A stretch of 64,000 bases of DNA from the NCBI RefSeq assembly GCF_039645965.1, contig NZ_CP147917.1:1116001-1180000 (forward strand), in the 5' to 3' direction. Position numbers and translations under genes: made by a program. Of this stretch, positions 6,070 through 32,946 are shown in pieces (position 1 is the stretch's first letter; each line of letters begins with the position of its first letter). Under the pieces are notes generated by a model, which searched no databases, was not told the origin of the DNA, and worked only from the letters and a program-made list of their open reading frames with translations. This stretch comes from Sulfurimonas sp. HSL3-2 (GTDB lineage Bacteria; Campylobacterota; Campylobacteria; Campylobacterales; Sulfurimonadaceae).

Positions 6070-7738
6070 TGTATGTATAATCGGAAGCGGTGCAGGCGGT
6101 GCTCCCATCGCTTATGAGCTTTCTCGTGCCGGCAAAAAAGTATTGGTTCTTGAAAAGGGCAGGTACTACACGGAAAAAGATTTTTTCAAAGATGAACTTG
6201 CCGTGTCAAGAAGAGATATCTATACACCGCCGCTTGATGAGCAGCAGCATGTCATAGAAACGCGAAACAATGATGGAGAGTGGGAAGCCATTGAAGGAAG
6301 AAAAAGCGGCTGGAACTTCTGGAACGGATCGATGGTAGGGGGCTCATCAAACCTTATGAGCGGATACTTTCACCGTATGAAGCCAAACGACTTTCAACCG
6401 GCTTCCGTCTACCCGAAGATAGAGGGTGCTAACGTAGTCGACTGGATGATCGAGTATAAGGATCTGGAACCCTACTATGATAAGGTGGAAAAAGTCGTAG
6501 GTGTTTCCGGGCATGTGGTTCAACATCCGTTTTTAGAACCCCGTTCATCGGCCGAGTACCCGTTTAAACCTACCTGGGAGCATCCTATTGCATTTTGGTT
6601 CGATGCAGCATGTAAAAAGCTTGGATTTTACTCCATACCTACGGCACGTGCGGTTCTTCCGTATGATGCACTCGAACGAAAAGGGTGCTCATACTCAAAC
6701 TTTTGCGGCAGCTACGGATGCGCGACAGGAGCAAAGGGCAATGCCCGTTCGGCTCTTTTAGACAAGGCTTTAAAGACGGGAAACTGTACGATTTTAAGCG
6801 ATTCATTCGTATATAAGATAGAGAGTGACGAGAAAAAAGCGACAAAGATATACTACTATAATGAGGACAATCAAAGCTTACATGTAGAGGCAAAACTCTT
6901 TGTAGTGGCTGCACAGGCAGTTGAAAGTTCCAGACTGTTGTTAAACTCGAAAAACAGTTACTTTCCAAACGGTCTTTTAAATAACTATGGTCAAGTCGGC
7001 AAAAACCTTATATTCTCAGCCGGAGGAAACGGCGAGGGAAGACTGAGGTTTGAAGACCTGCCAAAAGAGAAACAGGACGTGCTGCTTTTAAGAGGTGCAT
7101 TTGTGAACCGCTCTTTACAGGACTGGTATGAGTATGAGCAAGATGGACAAACAATAAAAGGCGGTACGATCGACTTTTTATTTGAACATGCAAATCCGAC
7201 GAGCAGGGCACTGGCAGAGGTATATGATAATGATTCAAACCTGATCTGGGGTGAAAAACTGCAGCAAAAGATAAAATATGCTTTTATGCGGTCTAGAAAA
7301 TTCTCCTTTGAGGTCTTTAACGACTGGCTGCCTACGGATGATTGTTTTGTAACTATAGACGAGGATGTTAAAGACAAATGGGGCATCCCCGTGGGCAAGA
7401 TACGTCTAAACTCTCACAAGCATGACATAGAAGTCGGCAAGGTACTGGCAGGCAAAGCCGTACAGGTGCTAAAAGAGATGGGAGCAGTCGAAATAAGTAC
7501 AAATATATCGAGTGCTCCGCCGCCTAATCTAGTCGCAGGAGGATGCCGATTTGGTTATAATGAAAGAAATTCTGTTTTAGACAGGAACTGTAAGGCGCAT
7601 GCATTGGATAACCTGTATGTCACGGATGCATCGTTTATGCCTACAGGAGGCAGTGTTCCCTACACTTGGACGATCTATGCGAACTCTTTTAGAGTCGCAG
7701 ATGAGATACTTAAAAGATTTGATAATAAAGAATTTTGA
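6062..7738 (+). CDS. GMC-family FAD-dependent dehydrogenase, large subunit
   Basis: A 558-residue flavoprotein. The N-terminal Rossmann motif GSGAGGAPIAYELSRAG (residues about 8-24) and the following 'VLVLEKG' bind FAD. The middle has 'GGSSNLMSGY', and the C-terminus has 'LYVTDASFMPTGGSVPYTWT', typical of GMC sugar/alcohol dehydrogenases. It has no signal peptide and probably travels with the Tat-like small subunit encoded just upstream. I see no cytochrome c subunit gene nearby, so the electron acceptor is not apparent. The substrate could be a sugar, sugar acid or alcohol and cannot be read from the sequence. Confidence 0.85.
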   Translation: MYDVCIIGSGAGGAPIAYELSRAGKKVLVLEKGRYYTEKDFFKDELAVSRRDIYTPPLDEQQHVIETRNNDGEWEAIEGRKSGWNFWNGSMVGGSSNLMSGYFHRMKPNDFQPASVYPKIEGANVVDWMIEYKDLEPYYDKVEKVVGVSGHVVQHPFLEPRSSAEYPFKPTWEHPIAFWFDAACKKLGFYSIPTARAVLPYDALERKGCSYSNFCGSYGCATGAKGNARSALLDKALKTGNCTILSDSFVYKIESDEKKATKIYYYNEDNQSLHVEAKLFVVAAQAVESSRLLLNSKNSYFPNGLLNNYGQVGKNLIFSAGGNGEGRLRFEDLPKEKQDVLLLRGAFVNRSLQDWYEYEQDGQTIKGGTIDFLFEHANPTSRALAEVYDNDSNLIWGEKLQQKIKYAFMRSRKFSFEVFNDWLPTDDCFVTIDEDVKDKWGIPVGKIRLNSHKHDIEVGKVLAGKAVQVLKEMGAVEISTNISSAPPPNLVAGGCRFGYNERNSVLDRNCKAHALDNLYVTDASFMPTGGSVPYTWTIYANSFRVADEILKRFDNKEF

Positions 7739-7753
7739 TATTAGGAAATATGA

Positions 7754-9421
7754 ATGGTAAATATGGTTATTGAGGTGTTTTCCGGTCTTGGAATGTTTCT
7801 ATTTGGAATGTTTTATATGGAGATCGCATTAAAAGAGCTTGCCGGCATACGGTTTAAACAATGGATAAAGAACTCGACGTCAAGCAGAGCAAAGTCACTT
7901 TTAACAGGGACGTTGGCGACTGCCGTACTTCAAAGCTCATCCGTTGTCACATTGATGACGTTGTCTTTTGTCAGTACCTCTCTTGTCTCTCTTGAATCAG
8001 CGATCGGGATCATCTTCGGCTCAAATCTGGGTACGACAGTCACGGCTTGGATAGTAGCAACTCTGGGATTTAAAGTAAAAATAGAACTTTTTGCACTGCC
8101 TATGATAGGACTTGGCGGATTTATGCTGATCTTAAACTCATCGCATAAAAGATTAGAAGCCGTCGCGAAGATACTTATCGGTTTTGGTCTGCTGTTTTTT
8201 GGTCTGGAGATCATGAAAAACTCAATAGAGACTCTTGGACAGAACTTTGACCTGGCGGCATATACACACTATCCGATCATTGTATTTGTAGGACTTGGTT
8301 TTATCATCACTGCACTTATTCAATCAAGTTCAGCAACGACAGCGATCATACTGAGTGCGTTGTATGCGGGAATACTCAGTTTTGAACAATCCGCTGCCAT
8401 GGTCATAGGGGCTAATGTCGGGACTACCGTGACAGCACTTCTTGGCGCTATCGGCGGTATTCCGGATAAGAAACGTGTTGCACTTGCACATGTCTTATTT
8501 AACTTTATAACAGGTTTTTTTGCTTTTTTACTTCTGCCGTTTCTAAGTACATTTTTGATGAAGTTGTTTCCAACGGATAAAACAACGGCTCTGGCACTGT
8601 TTCATACGATCTTCAACCTGTTTGGGATCATCATTTTGATCTATTTTATTCCGCTAATGACGAAGTATCTGCAGCTGATGTTCAAAACAACTGAAAAAAT
8701 GCCTACAAAATATATCCATCTTGCAGATCCGAAATTTACAGATACGGCCCTTGTAGCTCTTCGTAATGAGATAAACCATCTCTTTCTTAAAACACTTAAG
8801 TTTGCTCTTTTGATCGCACATATAAGACCCGATGATGTCATTAATGGAAAATACGATGCCAAAAATACAGTTTTAAACAATCAGAAATTTATAGATTTTG
8901 ACTATAAAAAAGTCTATGAAAATATAAAAGATATCGAGATAAGAGCCGTTGAGTTTGCAAATGTTTTAAACCAACAAAACCTTACTCCTTTACAGAGTCA
9001 AAATATCGATATACTGCTTACATCTACAAGAGAGATAGGATATGCCGCTAAGACACTTAAAGATGTCAAAAACAACATAGACGATCTGTTTGACAACGAC
9101 AATATCCCTTTACACAATATGTATAATGAGGTAAGGACAAATCTGGCATATGTGATACTGCTCTTTGTCAACTATATGAATGAAAAATGGACAATGGAAA
9201 AATCTCTTGCAAAATTCACTACCGCAGATGAAGAGAGTCATCAGATAACCAAAAAAACGACCCAGCTTGTGAGTAAAGATAATGTAAACGAAAAATATAT
9301 GCTTGCACTTTTAAACGTGAACAGAAACATCAATATATCTATGAAATCATTGCTGGAGGCATCTAAAGCCGTAAATCTACAGTTTGAAATAGAAAAGGAA
9401 AACAGCAGCATAGAACAATAA
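7754..9421 (+). CDS. Na/Pi cotransporter family protein (NptA/YjbB type)
   Basis: A 555-residue protein with an N-terminal transporter of about eight helices holding two copies of the family repeat QSSS (QSSSVVTLMTLS near residue 58 and QSSSATTAIILS near residue 190). The C-terminal 200 residues are helical and PhoU-like. The family moves phosphate with Na+. The PhoU-like tail suggests a regulatory role. An AGGA lies about eight bases before the ATG at 7754. The gene follows the GMC dehydrogenase by 15 bases but has no evident functional tie to it. Confidence 0.88.
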   Translation: MVNMVIEVFSGLGMFLFGMFYMEIALKELAGIRFKQWIKNSTSSRAKSLLTGTLATAVLQSSSVVTLMTLSFVSTSLVSLESAIGIIFGSNLGTTVTAWIVATLGFKVKIELFALPMIGLGGFMLILNSSHKRLEAVAKILIGFGLLFFGLEIMKNSIETLGQNFDLAAYTHYPIIVFVGLGFIITALIQSSSATTAIILSALYAGILSFEQSAAMVIGANVGTTVTALLGAIGGIPDKKRVALAHVLFNFITGFFAFLLLPFLSTFLMKLFPTDKTTALALFHTIFNLFGIIILIYFIPLMTKYLQLMFKTTEKMPTKYIHLADPKFTDTALVALRNEINHLFLKTLKFALLIAHIRPDDVINGKYDAKNTVLNNQKFIDFDYKKVYENIKDIEIRAVEFANVLNQQNLTPLQSQNIDILLTSTREIGYAAKTLKDVKNNIDDLFDNDNIPLHNMYNEVRTNLAYVILLFVNYMNEKWTMEKSLAKFTTADEESHQITKKTTQLVSKDNVNEKYMLALLNVNRNINISMKSLLEASKAVNLQFEIEKENSSIEQ

Positions 9422-15781: not shown

Positions 15782-16933
15782 TTAGAATACCTCTTTAACT
15801 TTATTTACTATTTCATATGGAGAGATTGGACGACCGTTAACTTTATATAAGCCTTGTAGGTCTAATCTTCCAGAAACACGTTCTACCTCTTCAGTGTATT
15901 GTCTAATATTCAACTCAACACAAAGTACATTTTTGATCATATCAGTATATTTTTTGATAGATTCAGCTGGACTTGGCCATAAAGTGATCGGTCTGAATAA
16001 ACCAGCTTTAATACCTTCAGCTCTTAAGTGACGAATCGCTTCTTTTGCTGCAAGAGAAACTGAACCATAAGCGATAATAAGAACTTCGCCCTCAGCACCA
16101 GTCATATCATCAAGCATAAACTCTTCATTAAGTTCGATCTCATCTGTATGCATCATAACTTTATCTTCAAGACGTTGAATCAGTTTACGACATGTTTCGA
16201 TCTCTTCAGTCGGGAAACCTTTAGCATCATGGTGAAGACCAGTAAAGTGGTATCTGTAACCTTTAAACATTGGGTTTAGTACCGCCGGTTGATCTGCTTC
16301 ACACTCATATGGAAGATACTCTTCAGGTGCTCCGTCAAAAGTTTTACGAGGAACGATACCTGCTGCTACTTCTTCTTCAGTTGGTAGCATAGCTTTTCCA
16401 TGCATGTGACCGATTGTTTCGTCAAGTAGAACGAATACAGGCTGCATAAATCTGTCAGCTAAGTTGAATGCTCTTACAGTTTCTGTATAACACTCTGCTA
16501 AAGAACCAGCACATAAAGTGATAGAACGATAGTCACCGTGTGAAGGATTTTTTGCTTGTCTTACGTCACCTTGAGATACACGAGTCGGAAGACCAGTTGA
16601 TGGACCACCACGCATAACGTTTACAACGACCAATGGTACTTCAGCCATTTGTGCAAGACCTAAGTTTTCAGCTTTTAGTGAAATACCAGGGCCTGAAGTA
16701 GCAGTCATTGTTCTAACACCTGCCATACCGGCACCGATAGCAGCTGCAACACCTGCGATCTCATCTTCCATTTGAATACATACACCACCGACTTCTGGCA
16801 TTAAGTCAGACATCTCGTGCATTACTTCACTTGACGGTGTAATCGGGTAACCACCAAAAAATCTACATCCTGCATCTTTTGCAGCTAATGCTGATAATTC
16901 ATTACCAGTTGAAATTACTTCTCTTGTTGCCAT
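15782..16933 (-). CDS. oorA: 2-oxoglutarate:ferredoxin oxidoreductase, alpha subunit
   Basis: A 383-residue alpha subunit with the pyrimidine-binding domain of TPP enzymes. Hallmarks are 'GCRFFGGYPITPSSE' near the N-terminus, 'MEDEIAGVAAAIGAGMAG' holding the conserved Glu, and 'TATSGPGISLK'. The C-terminal third is the transketolase-C-like domain. Its start overlaps the oorD stop by one base, and oorB follows after one base. Confidence 0.96.
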   Translation of the reverse strand: MATREVISTGNELSALAAKDAGCRFFGGYPITPSSEVMHEMSDLMPEVGGVCIQMEDEIAGVAAAIGAGMAGVRTMTATSGPGISLKAENLGLAQMAEVPLVVVNVMRGGPSTGLPTRVSQGDVRQAKNPSHGDYRSITLCAGSLAECYTETVRAFNLADRFMQPVFVLLDETIGHMHGKAMLPTEEEVAAGIVPRKTFDGAPEEYLPYECEADQPAVLNPMFKGYRYHFTGLHHDAKGFPTEEIETCRKLIQRLEDKVMMHTDEIELNEEFMLDDMTGAEGEVLIIAYGSVSLAAKEAIRHLRAEGIKAGLFRPITLWPSPAESIKKYTDMIKNVLCVELNIRQYTEEVERVSGRLDLQGLYKVNGRPISPYEIVNKVKEVF

Positions 16934-17268
16934 TATTTAACTCCTTGTAGATCAAGTGACATATAGTTGTTTGCAACAACTTTTGCTTGACGCTCTTTTG
17001 ATTCATCAGTAAGTTTTGCAAACTTATAATCTTTTTTATCAGCTACATAAATAGCAAAATCCGGGCATGAAAGTTCACACTCGTTACATCCAATACAAGC
17101 TTCGGGATGATCTACTGAAATCATTGCACCTAAAGTAGATGTGTGGTCATAACGCATACCAAGTACACCAGATGGACAAACAGATACACAAATATCGCAT
17201 GCCTTACAATTATCTTTATTAACCCATACAGGTACATTACCTGGGTATTCAATCATAGCAGATGCCAT
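16933..17268 (-). CDS. oorD: 2-oxoglutarate:ferredoxin oxidoreductase, delta (ferredoxin-like) subunit
   Basis: A 111-residue protein with two [4Fe-4S] motifs: CKACDICVSVCP (CxxCxxCxxxCP) and CIGCNECELSCP. It is the electron-transfer subunit that passes electrons between ferredoxin and the catalytic subunits. It is the first gene of the oorDABC operon and has a GGAG ribosome site. Confidence 0.95.
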   Translation of the reverse strand: MASAMIEYPGNVPVWVNKDNCKACDICVSVCPSGVLGMRYDHTSTLGAMISVDHPEACIGCNECELSCPDFAIYVADKKDYKFAKLTDESKERQAKVVANNYMSLDLQGVK

Positions 17269-17537
17269 ATATTCTCCTTTTTACAAGTGAAATTAATTTT
17301 TCTTTTTATTATCCGAAAATTTTTCAATAGCAGAAGAGACTATGCTCTTTGCCTTGAAGGTGATCGAATCTATGCAACTAACCTCTTCATTAATAAAGAG
17401 AATAGCCTAATTTTCTTAACATTGCTTAAAATGTGCTACAGACGCCTCATCAATAATATCTATTGTTACCTTGAGAAGCTCGCACTATAGGTCACTTCAG
17501 ATCAAAGATCAGTGACCTAAAAAGTTTTAAGCATTGT
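17269..17537. other. Intergenic leader between sucD and oorD
   Basis: No convincing gene. The right-hand part holds the oor promoter region. A strong imperfect hairpin lies at 17488-17519: TAGGTCACT pairs with AGTGACCTA around an inner GATC/GATC pair with an AAA loop. It starts 19 bases after the sucD stop. It lacks a T tail on either strand, so it is more likely an RNA-stabilising or processing element than an intrinsic terminator. Confidence 0.5.
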
Positions 17538-26185: not shown

Positions 26186-27388
26186 CTATTCGTTTCTTAA
26201 AACTGTCAGTATATCTACTTCACTTGCTTTTTTAGCAGGGTAGTAAGATGACAGGATAACGATAAAAAATGCTCCAAAGACAATAAGAGAGAAATCGATC
26301 AGGCTCAGATCAAGAGGAAGAGTTGTCGTCGGATAGACATCTTTTGGAAGTTGTACGATATCAAAATTACTTAATATCCATATACCACTTAGACCAAGAA
26401 TGATACCGGCTAATATGCCCCCTATTCCGATTACGATACCAAGATATAAAAATACCTTTTTAATCTGTATCTTCGATGCACCGAGCGAAAGTAAAAGTGC
26501 AATCTCTGCACGTCTATTCATCACGGTCATAAGAAGTGAAGAGATAATGTTTATAGACGCGATAAGGATAAGAAGCATCAATACGATAAAAAGTGATTTT
26601 TTCTCCATCTCCAAAGCTGCAAAGAAATTGACATTATCCTGCCACCATCCTTTTATAACGACCGTATTTGGAAGAGTCTTTTTAATCTTTATGATATCTT
26701 CATGCGGATTGTCTGAATATACGTGTATTCCGTCATATTGATTTGATGCCATACCTAAGATCTTTTGCAAAGACCTCATATCGGTATAACTGTATGCTTT
26801 ATCATACGCTATAAGACCCGAATCAAAAAAACCTTCAACCGTAAATCTTTTTATTTTAGGAGTGATAGAGAGTCCGCCCGGTTCGACCTGAGTAAAGATA
26901 TACATCAGTTTATCGCCCTTTTGGATCTGAAACTCCTCTTTTAGCGATTTTCCGGTGATAACGCTGAACTTCGGATAGTTGTAACCCTTCATCGCTTTAT
27001 TGAGTATGCTGTTTACTTTTGCTTCAGCTTCAAAGTCTACACCGAATATATAGCCGCCTTCAAGTTTTGATCCGTTTCTTGTGATGACCGAAGACATAAC
27101 ATAAGGGCTGAAATTTAGTTTTGGAAAATCGTTTACAAGCGTAGTCAAAAGCTGTTCATTCGTAGAACCGTAAAATTTTGGAAGTATAGTAAGAGGATAG
27201 TTCATAACAGTAAGCTTGTTTTTAAACTCTTTGTCAAAACCGTTCATAAGAGCCATAGCGACTATTAAGACCATAACACCGAGGGTTATGCCTAAAAATG
27301 CAAGAAGAGCCGATAGGAAGATAAATGGCTGCTCTTTGTCGAAACGCAAAAAGCGTTTGACAAGATAGGGAACTATATTTTTATTCAA
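26186..27388 (-). CDS. LolC/LolE-type ABC transporter permease
   Basis: A protein of about 400 residues with the MacB/FtsX permease layout: an N-terminal helix after '[26 protein letters not shown]', a large periplasmic domain, and three C-terminal helices. It probably extracts lipoproteins from the inner membrane together with an ATPase encoded elsewhere, feeding LolA, which is encoded about 5 kb away. I take the TTG at 27388, which overlaps the secA stop (TTGA), because the ATG at 27430 would add 14 residues read from the end of secA and not found in this family. Translational coupling to secA is likely. Confidence 0.85.
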
Positions 27389-29958
27389 GAAGCAAATACA
27401 CCTTTTTTTGGACCGCTTTTGCCGCAGCATTGCTTATATTTTTTACCGCTTCCACAAGGACAAGGGTCGTTTCTTGCCACTTTTCTTTCTCCGTTAAGAT
27501 CATCATCGTCATGTAGGTTAAGAGTCATCTGAGCCTCTTCCTGTCTTCTTTCGATCTCTTGACGACGAGCAAATTCCGCTGCTTCATCCTCAGCTGATTT
27601 CAATTGAAATTGAATAATATGAAGTGTCTTTATCGTGTTATATTTAATGTTTTCAACCAGCTCGCTAAAGAGATTGAAACTCTCTTTTTTATACTCAACT
27701 AACGGATCTTTTTGGTTATATGCACGCAGACGGATACCTGTTTTCATATTATCCATCGTATATAGGTGCTCTCTCCAAGCAGTATCGAGTGTTTTTAAAT
27801 AGAACTCTCTTTCAACTTCACCGCGAAGTTCTTCATCAAGTACGCTCATCTTCTCATCATATGATTTCTTGATATCGCTATATAATTTACTATATAGTTC
27901 ATCGTAATCCAATGCTTTTAGACTCTCAATATCCAAGTCAAAGTTGATCTCCTCTTTTAAAACAAGAGAAAGTTTTTCAAGATTGAAATCTTCAGAAGAA
28001 GAACCGTTAAAGATACCACATTCTATGAGTACACTTGCCAAGTACTCTTCTCTAACCGAATCGACTTTTTTAGATATTTCATACTCAGGATTTAAAAGCT
28101 CATTTCTAAATCTGTAAATGATCTTTCTTTGCTCATTTGCGACATCATCATACTCAACGATCTGCTTACGCCCTTCATAGTGAAGGTTCTCGACTTTTTT
28201 CTGTGCTTTTTCAACTGCACGCGTGACCATCTTCGATTCTATGTACTCACCGTCTTCGACACCGAGTCTTTCCATGATAGATTTGATCTTGTCAGAGCCG
28301 AAGATTCTAAGAAGGTTGTCTTCCAGTGAAAGATAGAACTGTGTCGTTCCCGGATCACCCTGACGACCTGAACGTCCGCGAAGCTGGTTATCTATACGAC
28401 GGTTCTCATGTCTTTCAGTACCGATGATATAAAGTCCGCCAAGATCTTTGACCTCGTCGTTTACTTTAATGTCGACACCACGTCCAGCCATGTTTGTAGC
28501 AATGGTAATAGCACCTTTTGCTCCGGCAAACTTAATGATCTCACCCTCTTGAGCGTGATTTTTTGCATTTAATACAGTATGCGCTATCTTCTCTTTTTTA
28601 AGCAGTTCATGAAGTTTTTCAGATTTTTCTATCGAAGCCGTACCGATAAGAACAGGCTGACCGTTCTTTGAAAGCTCTTTTACCTTCTCGATTACCGCAC
28701 TGAACTTTTCTATCTCCGTCTTATAGATCAAGTCATTCAAGTCTTGACGGGCAACAGGGATGTTTGTAGGGATCGAAACGACATCAAGGTTATATATCTG
28801 AGCAAACTCTGTAGCCTCAGTTTGAGCCGTACCTGTCATACCTGAAAGCTTATCATACATTCTAAAGTAGTTTTGGAATGTGATGTCTGCAAGCGTCTGA
28901 GTCTCTTCTTTGATCTCTACACCCTCTTTTGCCTCTAGTGCTTGGTGCAGACCTTCAGAGAATCTACGTCCTTCACTTAAACGTCCCGTAAACTCATCAA
29001 CGATAACTATCTCGCCGTCATTTACGACGTAGTCGACATCGACTTCAAAAAGGTAGTTTGCTTTTAAAGCTTGGTCAAGGTGATGTGAAAGTGTAGAATT
29101 CTCTACACCGTAAAGGTTCTCAACACCGAAAAGTTCTTCAGCTTTTGTGATTCCATCTTCCGTGATAAGAATGACTCTGTCTTTCTCATCTACCGTAAAA
29201 TGGTCCTCTTTCGTCATCTTAAGCGCTACACTGTTTGCCTGCTTATACGCATCTAGAGTTCTGTTTACCGGACCTGATATGATAAGAGGAGTTCTTGCTT
29301 CATCGATAAGAATAGAGTCGACTTCATCCACGATAACGAAGTGATGTCCACGCTGAACCATATGCTCTTTTGTATAGCTCATATTGTCACGAAGATAATC
29401 AAATCCAAATTCGTTATTTGTTCCGTATGTGATATCGGCCAGATACTGTTTACGTTTCTCTTCAGGGTCATTAATAGTTTCAAGCACTACGCCTACACTG
29501 TATCCTAAGAATTCGTAAAGCGGAGCCATTTCCGTAGCATCACGTTTTGCAAGATAATCGTTTACGGTTACCAGATGGACACCTTTACCCGTCATTGCAT
29601 TTAAGATGATCGGAAGAGTAGCGACAAGTGTCTTACCCTCACCTGTCTTCATCTCTGCAATTCTACCTTCATGCAGGACCATTCCACCGACTAACTGAAC
29701 ATCGTAGTGTCTCATGTTTAAAGCTCTAACAGCAGCTTCTCTGGTAATAGCAAAAGAGTGTTCTAAAACATCATCTAAACTTTTTTCATTCTCTAAAACA
29801 GATCTTTTCAATTCGGCAAAAGAGCTTTTTAGCTCATCATCACTCATATTTTTGTAATTTTGTTCTAAACTGTTTATATTATTGACACGCTTTTTATATT
29901 TTTTAAGCTCTCTGTCATTTTTAGTACCAAGTATCTTACCCATGAATGCTTGTAGCAT
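27385..29958 (-). CDS. secA: Preprotein translocase ATPase SecA
   Basis: An 857-residue motor of the Sec pathway. It has Walker A '[14 protein letters not shown]', the DEAD-like '[20 protein letters not shown]', the nucleotide-binding domain 2 '[12 protein letters not shown]' and the C-terminal zinc motif [13 protein letters not shown], which binds SecB and phospholipid. Length is normal. It is followed without gap by the LolC/E-type permease gene. Confidence 0.97.
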
Positions 29959-30188
29959 TTGAAACCTTGTTTTGAAATTTTTTTATTTTATCACACTAAA
30001 GATATATTTTCGCTAAATAGCCTAAAAGGCGTCTCTAAATATATCAATTTTGAAAATATATCGTGACATAGTAATATAAAAAAACAAATACTCAAAGCCT
30101 CAAGAAGAAAAGAAAAGTAGAGATCCATTTACAAGGATGTACTTTCATCCATTGAAGTATCTTATCGTCAATAAGTTCAAGTCCTAAT
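29959..30188. other. AT-rich gap between secA and the nuclease-like gene
   Basis: No full gene. It holds the secA promoter region on the right side of the secA start and a weak hairpin GGATG/CATCC near 30134-30149. A reading frame one base out of phase with the nuclease-like gene stays open from its last codons down to a stop at 30092-30094 and could be a lost C-terminal extension (see findings). Confidence 0.4.
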
Positions 30189-32219
30189 TTAACTATTTTT
30201 TTGCAGATTTTTAACTTTTTTATATTGATTATATGAATCATAAATATTTTGCGTGTTATATTTCATAAATAATAAGCCTAAAATATTATAAATAAAATTT
30301 TCATCTGCATCATTTTCGCTTATTAATTCCAACGGTATAAATAAAGAATTATGTAATATACTATCCAAGTTATCTCTTTTATTAAATGTCATTATAATCT
30401 CTGTAAGTTTTTCTAAATCTTTATTTGTTTTTTCAAACTCTTTAATATCTTTATCTGCTGCATTTAAGTTAAATGTAAATCTAATATGCATTAAAGCAAG
30501 TAACATATTTTTAGGAACATTATTCATAATACTGTACCAATTATTAGGAGACAATGAAATCTTAATGATTGTTTCATTATTGTAATACAATGTTTTTCCA
30601 TTTGTAAAAATCAACTTCTGTTTTTCCAAGAGATTTTTTTCATGTCTAAAAAGTTGAAATTGAGATGTTGCGAATGCCCTTATAAAATCTTGTAAAATAT
30701 GTATAGATGAGCCAGCAAATGAGTTTTTTGTTAATGCTTTATTTTTATTTTCAATAAACACTATTTTATCTTTAATTTTTACAACCAAATCACATTCATA
30801 CTTCTCTTTTTTTGATAATTTGTATTCTCCTGTATATATATCAAAATTATTTTTTTTAAATATAGATTCTACATAATTATCTATGTTATTACCTATTTTA
30901 GTATTTATATCTTTATCTATTTGCAATCTTATTTTCTCAACTAATGCATTATAAAAATACATTTTAAAATACTTAAAACCAATAATATAATACTTGCCTT
31001 TATATTTAATTATTGGATTATGAACAAAAAGATTTTTACTTTCTATAATATTTAGAGGTTTTGAATATTTTAGATTTATATTTTTACTATCAATAGAGAA
31101 AAAATTTAATATTTGTTCCAGATGTTTGGATAGTTTTAAATCAATTTCCATAATTTGTTTTTGATTTTCATATTTTTCTGTTTGAATCAAAAAAGAATAT
31201 AATTCCTTTCTTGTAAAATTAAATTTATCTTCAAATGATTTATTTAAGATTGAATTATCAATCAAGTTATTTATATACTTTATAACTGTTGTAGTTTTTA
31301 ATGGATAATTTAATGTATATAAGCTTGAATATAATATTTGTTTTTTTAATGTTTTTTCTAGATTCTTTTCATCTATTAAGATATACTCCCACTGATTATA
31401 TGACTGAAGTTTATATAAATTAATAAAATGTCTAAAATAGTCAAGAAGCGCTATAAAGGTTTTTTCATCGCTTTTTTTAAAATTAGAATAGTAAATATTT
31501 TTTAATGATATATTAATTATGTAATTAAAGGGTATCGTTTTATTAGCACGATCTTGTAATAATATAAAATTAATAAATCTAAATATATTAACTTGTTGTA
31601 ATTTTTTTTCTATTCTTGAAATAATTTTATCATTTTGTGTTTTATGAAGGATTATTTTACTATCAATGCAATCTAAGTTAATATTAACTTGATGTTTAAA
31701 AAATTTAATTGCATTAACAAAATCTGGTACATTACTGGTATAACTTTCATCCAAATTCACATAAAATCCATGTGGACTAATAAGATTTAATAAATAAAGT
31801 TTTTTTATAAGTTTTAACCAAAATGATTTATTTGTTAATGCTTCAATTTTATCATCTTGATATATACCGTAATGATTTAAAGTTTGAGCTAATGAAAAAT
31901 ATATATCTAAACGTTTTAGTTTATTTTCTCCTAATAAAAAGTCTATATGAATTTGTTGTGCTATATCACTAAGTACACTGGTCTTTATTGTAAAGTTATC
32001 TTTATATGATAGTATAAACTGTTTTATATATTCAGAAAACAGTTTTTGATTATCATTATTTGCATTAGCACAATAAGATATATTATAGTCATCTAAAACT
32101 TTTTTTTGTATGTATGAATAGCCTTTTGTTTTCTTTGCATTTTCCAACTCATTAAAGTAATTATTTTCACTCACTAACACATTATCTACAAGACGTTTAA
32201 AATGTTCAGTATTATTCAT
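30189..32219 (-). CDS. Orphan PD-(D/E)xK nuclease-like protein, AT-rich
   Basis: A 676-residue protein I do not recognise as a whole. Residues about 1-440 are mostly helical, rich in Asn, Lys and Ile, with no known motif. Residues about 445-520 fit the restriction-endonuclease core: Glu451 in 'NYVESIF', Asp477 in 'ECDLVV' and Glu490-x-Lys492 in 'IVFIENKNK', a D-x12-ExK spacing normal for the fold. Base composition differs sharply from neighbours: two counted 60-base lines gave 9 and 13 G/C, against 23 and 33 in secA. No methylase or helicase lies beside it. A defence nuclease or a mobile-element relic gained by transfer is the best inference. Nuclease activity is unproven. Confidence 0.8.
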   Translation of the reverse strand: MNNTEHFKRLVDNVLVSENNYFNELENAKKTKGYSYIQKKVLDDYNISYCANANNDNQKLFSEYIKQFILSYKDNFTIKTSVLSDIAQQIHIDFLLGENKLKRLDIYFSLAQTLNHYGIYQDDKIEALTNKSFWLKLIKKLYLLNLISPHGFYVNLDESYTSNVPDFVNAIKFFKHQVNINLDCIDSKIILHKTQNDKIISRIEKKLQQVNIFRFINFILLQDRANKTIPFNYIINISLKNIYYSNFKKSDEKTFIALLDYFRHFINLYKLQSYNQWEYILIDEKNLEKTLKKQILYSSLYTLNYPLKTTTVIKYINNLIDNSILNKSFEDKFNFTRKELYSFLIQTEKYENQKQIMEIDLKLSKHLEQILNFFSIDSKNINLKYSKPLNIIESKNLFVHNPIIKYKGKYYIIGFKYFKMYFYNALVEKIRLQIDKDINTKIGNNIDNYVESIFKKNNFDIYTGEYKLSKKEKYECDLVVKIKDKIVFIENKNKALTKNSFAGSSIHILQDFIRAFATSQFQLFRHEKNLLEKQKLIFTNGKTLYYNNETIIKISLSPNNWYSIMNNVPKNMLLALMHIRFTFNLNAADKDIKEFEKTNKDLEKLTEIIMTFNKRDNLDSILHNSLFIPLELISENDADENFIYNILGLLFMKYNTQNIYDSYNQYKKVKNLQKNS

Positions 32220-32430
32220 AGTTTATCATTCACTTAAATTACTCTCCGATGAATTAATCTAGACCTTTTATTACTATTTCTGTAAGATGATAGCAAATAT
32301 AACAAAAAAACTCATTATATGATACATGATAAATACTATAGTCTTTGGAGTGCTCTTTCGACTACATTTTGTAACATTATCTTGTTAAACACGCCATTGG
32401 ATATAATAATAAAAAAATAATTGGAGAAAT
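32220..32430. other. Divergent promoter region between nuclease-like gene and lolA
   Basis: A 211-base AT-rich gap. It must hold promoters for both genes. TATAATA near 32405 with GGAG before lolA gives the only clear signals. I see no tRNA, direct repeat or insertion sequence that would mark how the nuclease-like gene arrived. Confidence 0.4.
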
Positions 32431-32946
32431 ATGAAAAAGACGATCGCTTTATCACTTTTATGTGCAAATCTTTTTGGTTTTGCCGACAACTTAAACACTT
32501 TTTCGGCGCACTTTGTACAGACAGTCGTAGATGATAAGAACACGACCATCGAATACAGCGGAGACATAAAGGCAAAAAGACCGAATATGGCTATGTGGAA
32601 CTACGTAAAACCGATAAAGAAAGAGATATATATCAATAATGAAGACCTTGTGATAATAGAGCCTGAGATCGAGCAGGTAATACTTAAAAAAGTGGGAAGT
32701 ACCATCGCCTTTTTCGAGATGCTGAAAAACGCTAAAAAAATAGACAACGAACACTATGTAGCAAAATATGAGAAGATGAACCTGCATATCAATGTAAAAG
32801 GCGATAAGATCATCTCGATTACATACCTTGATGAATTAGAAAACAGAGTCACGATAATTTTTAGTAATCAAGTAGAAAATAAAGAGATAGACGATAGTGC
32901 TTTTAAAGCGGATATACCGTTAAACTTTGATCTGATATATCAATAA
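32431..32946 (+). CDS. lolA: Outer-membrane lipoprotein carrier LolA
   Basis: A 171-residue periplasmic chaperone. The signal peptide (MKKTIALSLLCANLFGFA) is followed by the LolA fold with 'FSAHFVQTVVDDKNTTIEYSGDI' broken here into its key parts: FxAxFxQ and YSGxI, then 'KRPNMAMWNYVKP', close to the family phrase RPxxxxWxYxxP. It carries lipoproteins from the LolCDE-type exporter to the outer membrane. A GGAG site precedes the ATG. Confidence 0.92.
   Translation: MKKTIALSLLCANLFGFADNLNTFSAHFVQTVVDDKNTTIEYSGDIKAKRPNMAMWNYVKPIKKEIYINNEDLVIIEPEIEQVILKKVGSTIAFFEMLKNAKKIDNEHYVAKYEKMNLHINVKGDKIISITYLDELENRVTIIFSNQVENKEIDDSAFKADIPLNFDLIYQ

Follow-up and report, generated by a model that had tools for sequence, protein, structure and literature searches.

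An AT-rich gene inserted between secA and lolA in Sulfurimonas encodes an uncatalogued PD-(D/E)xK protein and is a probable single-gene anti-phage system

We analysed a 64,000-nt stretch of the Sulfurimonas sp. HSL3-2 genome (hereafter, the window; contig NZ_CP147917.1, positions 1,116,001 to 1,180,000) and found that a 676-aa gene lying alone between secA and lolA encodes a protein with a predicted PD-(D/E)xK nuclease core. The gene is probably a horizontally acquired, stand-alone anti-phage gene whose N-terminal sensor would restrain the nuclease until a phage-linked trigger appears. One-gene phage defence was considered probable because relatives of the gene were found on plasmids and next to genes already known to act in virus defence. 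The DNA substrate, the autoinhibition, the phage trigger and the protection are the parts of this anti-phage reading that we infer.

The coding sequence (30,189..32,219, minus strand; ATG start), delimited by its open reading frame (ORF), its homologues and the structural model, was the sole gene between secA (27,385..29,958, minus strand) on the left and lolA (32,431..32,946, plus strand) on the right in the ORF listing of the window. Both neighbours are conserved: secA was assigned by its ORF and its synteny with lolA in relatives, and lolA by its ORF and the comparison of the interval in relatives. The G+C content of the 676-aa gene was 20.6%, whereas the 48 other non-overlapping window ORFs of at least 150 aa had a mean of 39.4% (sd 3.1%, z of approximately -6). 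It was the lowest value among the compared ORFs, the next lowest being 30.9%, and GC3 was 13.9% versus 35.2% in secA. The sequence-only reading had placed an AT-rich lone gene at exactly this position, counting its G+C in two picked lines of sequence; as the comparison now covers ORFs of the whole window, the outlier is real and not an artefact of that choice. Promoter-like sites near the gene were no more frequent than in shuffled sequences and no terminator-like site was found at the gene, and thus its regulation is left unclaimed.

The interval between secA and lolA was retrieved from 40 relatives via LolA, and in 24 of them lolA and the start of secA were both inside the retrieved stretch. 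The gap was approximately 94–241 bp in all 24, too short for any gene, against 2472 bp in the window. When the locus was aligned with the nearest two sites lacking the insert, both from congeners, the conserved flanks ended at approximately 30,097 and resumed at approximately 32,372; the inserted segment is therefore about 2.27 kb long (30,098..32,371), with the 676-aa gene as its only cargo. No convincing terminal repeats or target duplication were found around it. Horizontal gain of the gene is well supported, both by the empty interval (24/24 relatives, none with the same gene in the same place) and by the outlying composition. The accompanying proposal of a "variable slot" was not borne out: no other cargo was found between secA and lolA in the 24 relatives, so the locus represents an insertion seen once rather than a demonstrated variable slot.

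Residues 438–557 (30,549..30,908, minus strand) are predicted to form a PD-(D/E)xK nuclease fold, as supported by the AlphaFold model, VIA-align comparisons and sequence conservation. The model of the whole protein, made with six sequences (mean pLDDT 74), contains a helix (438–455), three strands (460–467, 473–482 and 485–491), a second helix (505–533) and a further strand (550–557). This order, and the placement of the conserved residues on it, is that of PD-(D/E)xK proteins: an acid lies in the preceding helix, and Asp and Glu-x-Lys lie on adjacent strands, the arrangement that defines the superfamily structurally. The nuclease core previously suggested from sequence was thus present in the predicted structure.

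Conservation was assessed in a 13-member alignment with identities down to 15%. The invariant residues were Pro230, Asn382, Pro402, Gly443, Tyr466, Asp477, Phe488, Glu490, Lys492, Gly503 and Gln522. Among these are motif II (Asp477; 30,789..30,791), motif III (Glu490-x-Lys492; 30,744..30,752) and, on the helix past the core strands, Gln522 (30,654..30,656), all on the minus strand. Position 447 was Asp or Glu in 13/13 members (Glu in eight of the 13), which makes Asp447 (30,879..30,881, minus strand) the putative motif I acid. The window protein carries Glu475, Asp477, Glu490, Lys492 and Lys494, and the alignment supports a predicted active site consisting of Asp447, Asp477, Glu490, Lys492, Lys494 and Gln522. 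Of the motif residues originally named, Asp477, Glu490 and Lys492 held in all 13 members; Glu451 was rejected as the motif I acid, its column varying freely (E, E, K, E, E, V, I, S, E, G, E, L, R).

When the nuclease part was compared with known structures using VIA-align, matches were obtained to N.BspD6I (Z 9.6, rmsd 4.0, 162 residues), McrC (Z 8.0), FokI (7.6), LmuA (7.6) and Can2 (7.4), with lower values for SduA (Z 5.8, rmsd 5.7, 148 residues) and Card1 (5.6). These Z values are mid-range and weak by themselves, yet they agree with the conserved motif. Can2/Card1, McrC, LmuA and the HerA-DUF nuclease subunits all contain a PD-(D/E)xK DNA nuclease domain whose elements are arranged in the same order (Z 5.6–8.0), but no CARF domain was recognised in the window protein, and its gene has no adjoining McrB, LmuB or HerA partner. 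The matches to McrC and restriction enzymes, the lack of an adjoining methyltransferase gene, and a weak match of one member to the DpnII profile (E 3e-4) would suit a type IV-like, modification-dependent restriction enzyme, in which the helical N-terminus would read modified bases, the PD-(D/E)xK domain would cut, and DNA would be the sole trigger. McrC, however, needs the McrB motor, which is absent here, and no modified-base reader (SRA, EVE or similar) was found by Pfam in 12 members; we consider such an enzyme unlikely.

The candidate sensor of the anti-phage reading is the N-terminal region, residues 1–395 (31,035..32,219, minus strand), which was characterised via models and fold searches. 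In the model it is all-helical except for one beta-hairpin (183–190). Folded alone, it yielded a model of moderate quality (mean pLDDT 68), for which no fold match exceeded Z 3.7. Identity to the nearest homologue was 56% in this region versus 81% in the nuclease part, a faster N-terminal divergence as would fit a sensor in an arms race. In the proposed mechanism, the helical region would sense a phage-linked trigger. Without the trigger, it would keep the C-terminal PD-(D/E)xK nuclease inactive; with the trigger present, the nuclease would cleave DNA. The target would be either the phage DNA itself or all DNA present, in which case the infected cell would die.

The closest parallel for such control is Shedu, a single-gene defence system whose variable N-terminal part controls a C-terminal PD-(D/E)xK nuclease; a clamp in that N-terminal part captures DNA ends, close to which the PD-(D/E)xK domain introduces nicks (PMC12904381). 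By analogy with Shedu, the best-supported model is one in which the N-terminus would both restrain and aim the DNase. The likeness in structure is the SduA match to the nuclease part. The window protein differs in having approximately 395 helical N-terminal residues without a known fold, and no DNA-end clamp was seen in its monomer model. Shedu profiles (Pfam and PADLOC SduA) matched neither the window protein (E <= 10) nor 12 members (E <= 1). GAPS1 (NCBIfam NF047931) is likewise a single-protein anti-phage family, and one member of the 676-aa family matched it in the nuclease part (E 0.008). However, the lengths differ, the best homologue scored 15.1 bits against a curated cut-off of 320, and the window protein had no match to NF047931. 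As the window protein fails the Shedu and GAPS1 profile tests, it can be called Shedu-like by analogy only. The PADLOC models PDC-M29B and HEC-02B showed weak similarity around the strand with ExK in the Alteromonas, Rhizobium and Methylobacter members (E 3e-4 to 0.03), but these models span 164–169 positions and the window protein did not match them.

The gene was rare and patchily distributed, being present in 8/397 Campylobacterota genomes (including the source genome) from six genera and in none of three sampled congeners. The window protein was 63% identical over its full length to a copy in Sulfurospirillum diekertiae, 55–58% and 40–41% identical to copies in four genomes, all from one other family, and 24–27% identical to a bridging member (G563). 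Homologues of the same length with 15–21% identity were found on plasmids, mostly conjugative, of the Pseudomonadota Alteromonas, Acinetobacter, Rhizobium, Xanthomonas, Bradyrhizobium and Methylobacter, and a fragment was found in Shewanella. At the DNA level, Escherichia coli genomes contained no relative of the Acinetobacter copy. Homologues from Campylobacterota with low-GC genomes had a G+C content of 19–21%, and the S. diekertiae copy had 24.8% in a locus of 41.8%, which suggests that the gene spread recently out of a low-GC lineage.

Two of the relatives were decayed. One was cut by a transposase gene of an insertion sequence, its tail lying approximately 10 kb away, and the other contained stops and split frames. 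Such copies could be expected if the gene were a decaying or inert passenger, functionless in the source genome, but the window copy is of full length, retains every catalytic residue in the alignment and is 63% identical to the S. diekertiae copy from end to end, making a passenger very improbable. At the locus of the interrupted copy (L063), two 454-aa transposase genes with an identical sequence start (7567–8931 and 15,972–17,336) bracket approximately 8 kb between the two pieces of the homologue, including an efflux-type operon; this is likely a composite transposon. A homing or phage-borne endonuclease was not supported either, as a protein search of 50,697 phage records yielded no homologue and six scans of viral contigs, which reach close relatives only, yielded no relative.

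We also examined the neighbourhoods of the homologues by profile scans of genes within approximately 10 kb of family members. The relatives examined mostly adjoined known defence genes or lay within mobile elements. Gabija was found near one family member (GajA 4.6e-235, GajB 3.2e-194), and AbiL (4.5e-96), a dGTPase (4.5e-73) and an FRG protein near another. AbiEii was found near family members in two loci (one in Alteromonas), BilA, BilC and BilD near the Xanthomonas homologue, HmaC near the Bradyrhizobium homologue, and a type IIG restriction-modification enzyme adjoining a Tn7-like tnsA near one member. In a control sample of 200 genomes, a single GajA model, with other Gabija subfamilies left out of the count, gave one strong match, located in the genome of a decayed copy approximately 5 kb from that copy. 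In an AbiEii control of eight genomes, the single AbiEii of one genome (G369) adjoined the homologue. No recognised defence gene adjoins the window copy. As the neighbours were chosen by eye, the patchy distribution and the clustering with known defence genes, the pattern expected of a defence gene, amount to a strong association rather than a formal enrichment test. Together, the neighbours argue for the defence role proposed from the sequence.

The same loci bear on a different possibility, namely that the nuclease serves a mobile element, in maintaining a plasmid or transposon, in competition between plasmids or in site-specific insertion. Many relatives are indeed on conjugative plasmids or near integrases and Tn7-like tnsA. 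The window copy, however, is a lone gene, and neither a mobility gene nor recognisable ends or a target duplication accompany it; moreover, partner genes vary from locus to locus while defence neighbours recur. We therefore regard service to a mobile element as improbable in general, with the caution that the Acinetobacter and Rhizobium homologues lie in plasmid contexts where functions besides defence are possible.

Two further arrangements were observed near homologues. Near the homologue in G563, an LmuA-like MBL-fold protein overlaps a 711-aa protein matching E1-E2 and JAB (L070, 8402–11,717), and the overlapping pair is possibly a fused ubiquitin-like defence operon. In S. diekertiae, a gene encoding a NERD domain and a topoisomerase-type zinc ribbon (L011, 7243–7995) and the homologue share a few bases where the former ends and the latter begins; the two possibly form a two-gene unit, which is absent in the window.

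Searches of the window protein against Pfam (2025), NCBIfam (2026), PHROGs 4, PADLOC (2023) and PDB profiles returned no meaningful match; weak matches to WW, proteasome-chaperone and similar profiles were set aside as chance. Foldseek returned no match to PDB or viral structures at E <= 0.001, and structure hits to an R2 retrotransposon and a nuclear receptor were rejected as helical or single-domain noise. A text search on the protein accessions of the homologues found no paper. A lone nuclease with a sensor is a known kind of system; this family and its N-terminus are absent from the searched libraries (PADLOC as of 2023). The family is outside these libraries, yet it occurs on conjugative plasmids and integrated elements, in two phyla and beside defence systems. 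We tentatively suggest, as a possibility short of probable, that the family is an anti-phage system that consists of one gene and is widespread in Campylobacterota and on Pseudomonadota plasmids; its helical sensor would have a new fold and would directly gate the PD-(D/E)xK DNase in response to a trigger unlike those of described systems. If the defence role is borne out, a single gene of 2 kb would constitute a compact defence module that is transferable and whose sensing domain is unexplored.

Two other proteins resembled the family in part. A 784-aa protein (L061, 571–2925) combines a PD-(D/E)xK-like core with a C-terminal SEC-C motif and, across the nuclease part, aligned with the 676-aa family profile (hhalign probability 83%); it possibly belongs to a related sensor-nuclease family. 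A 523-aa protein in another genome (L056 of G439, 1036–2607) has a pre-nuclease module and an ExK strand in common with the 676-aa family (hhalign 94%), which suggests a wider superfamily.
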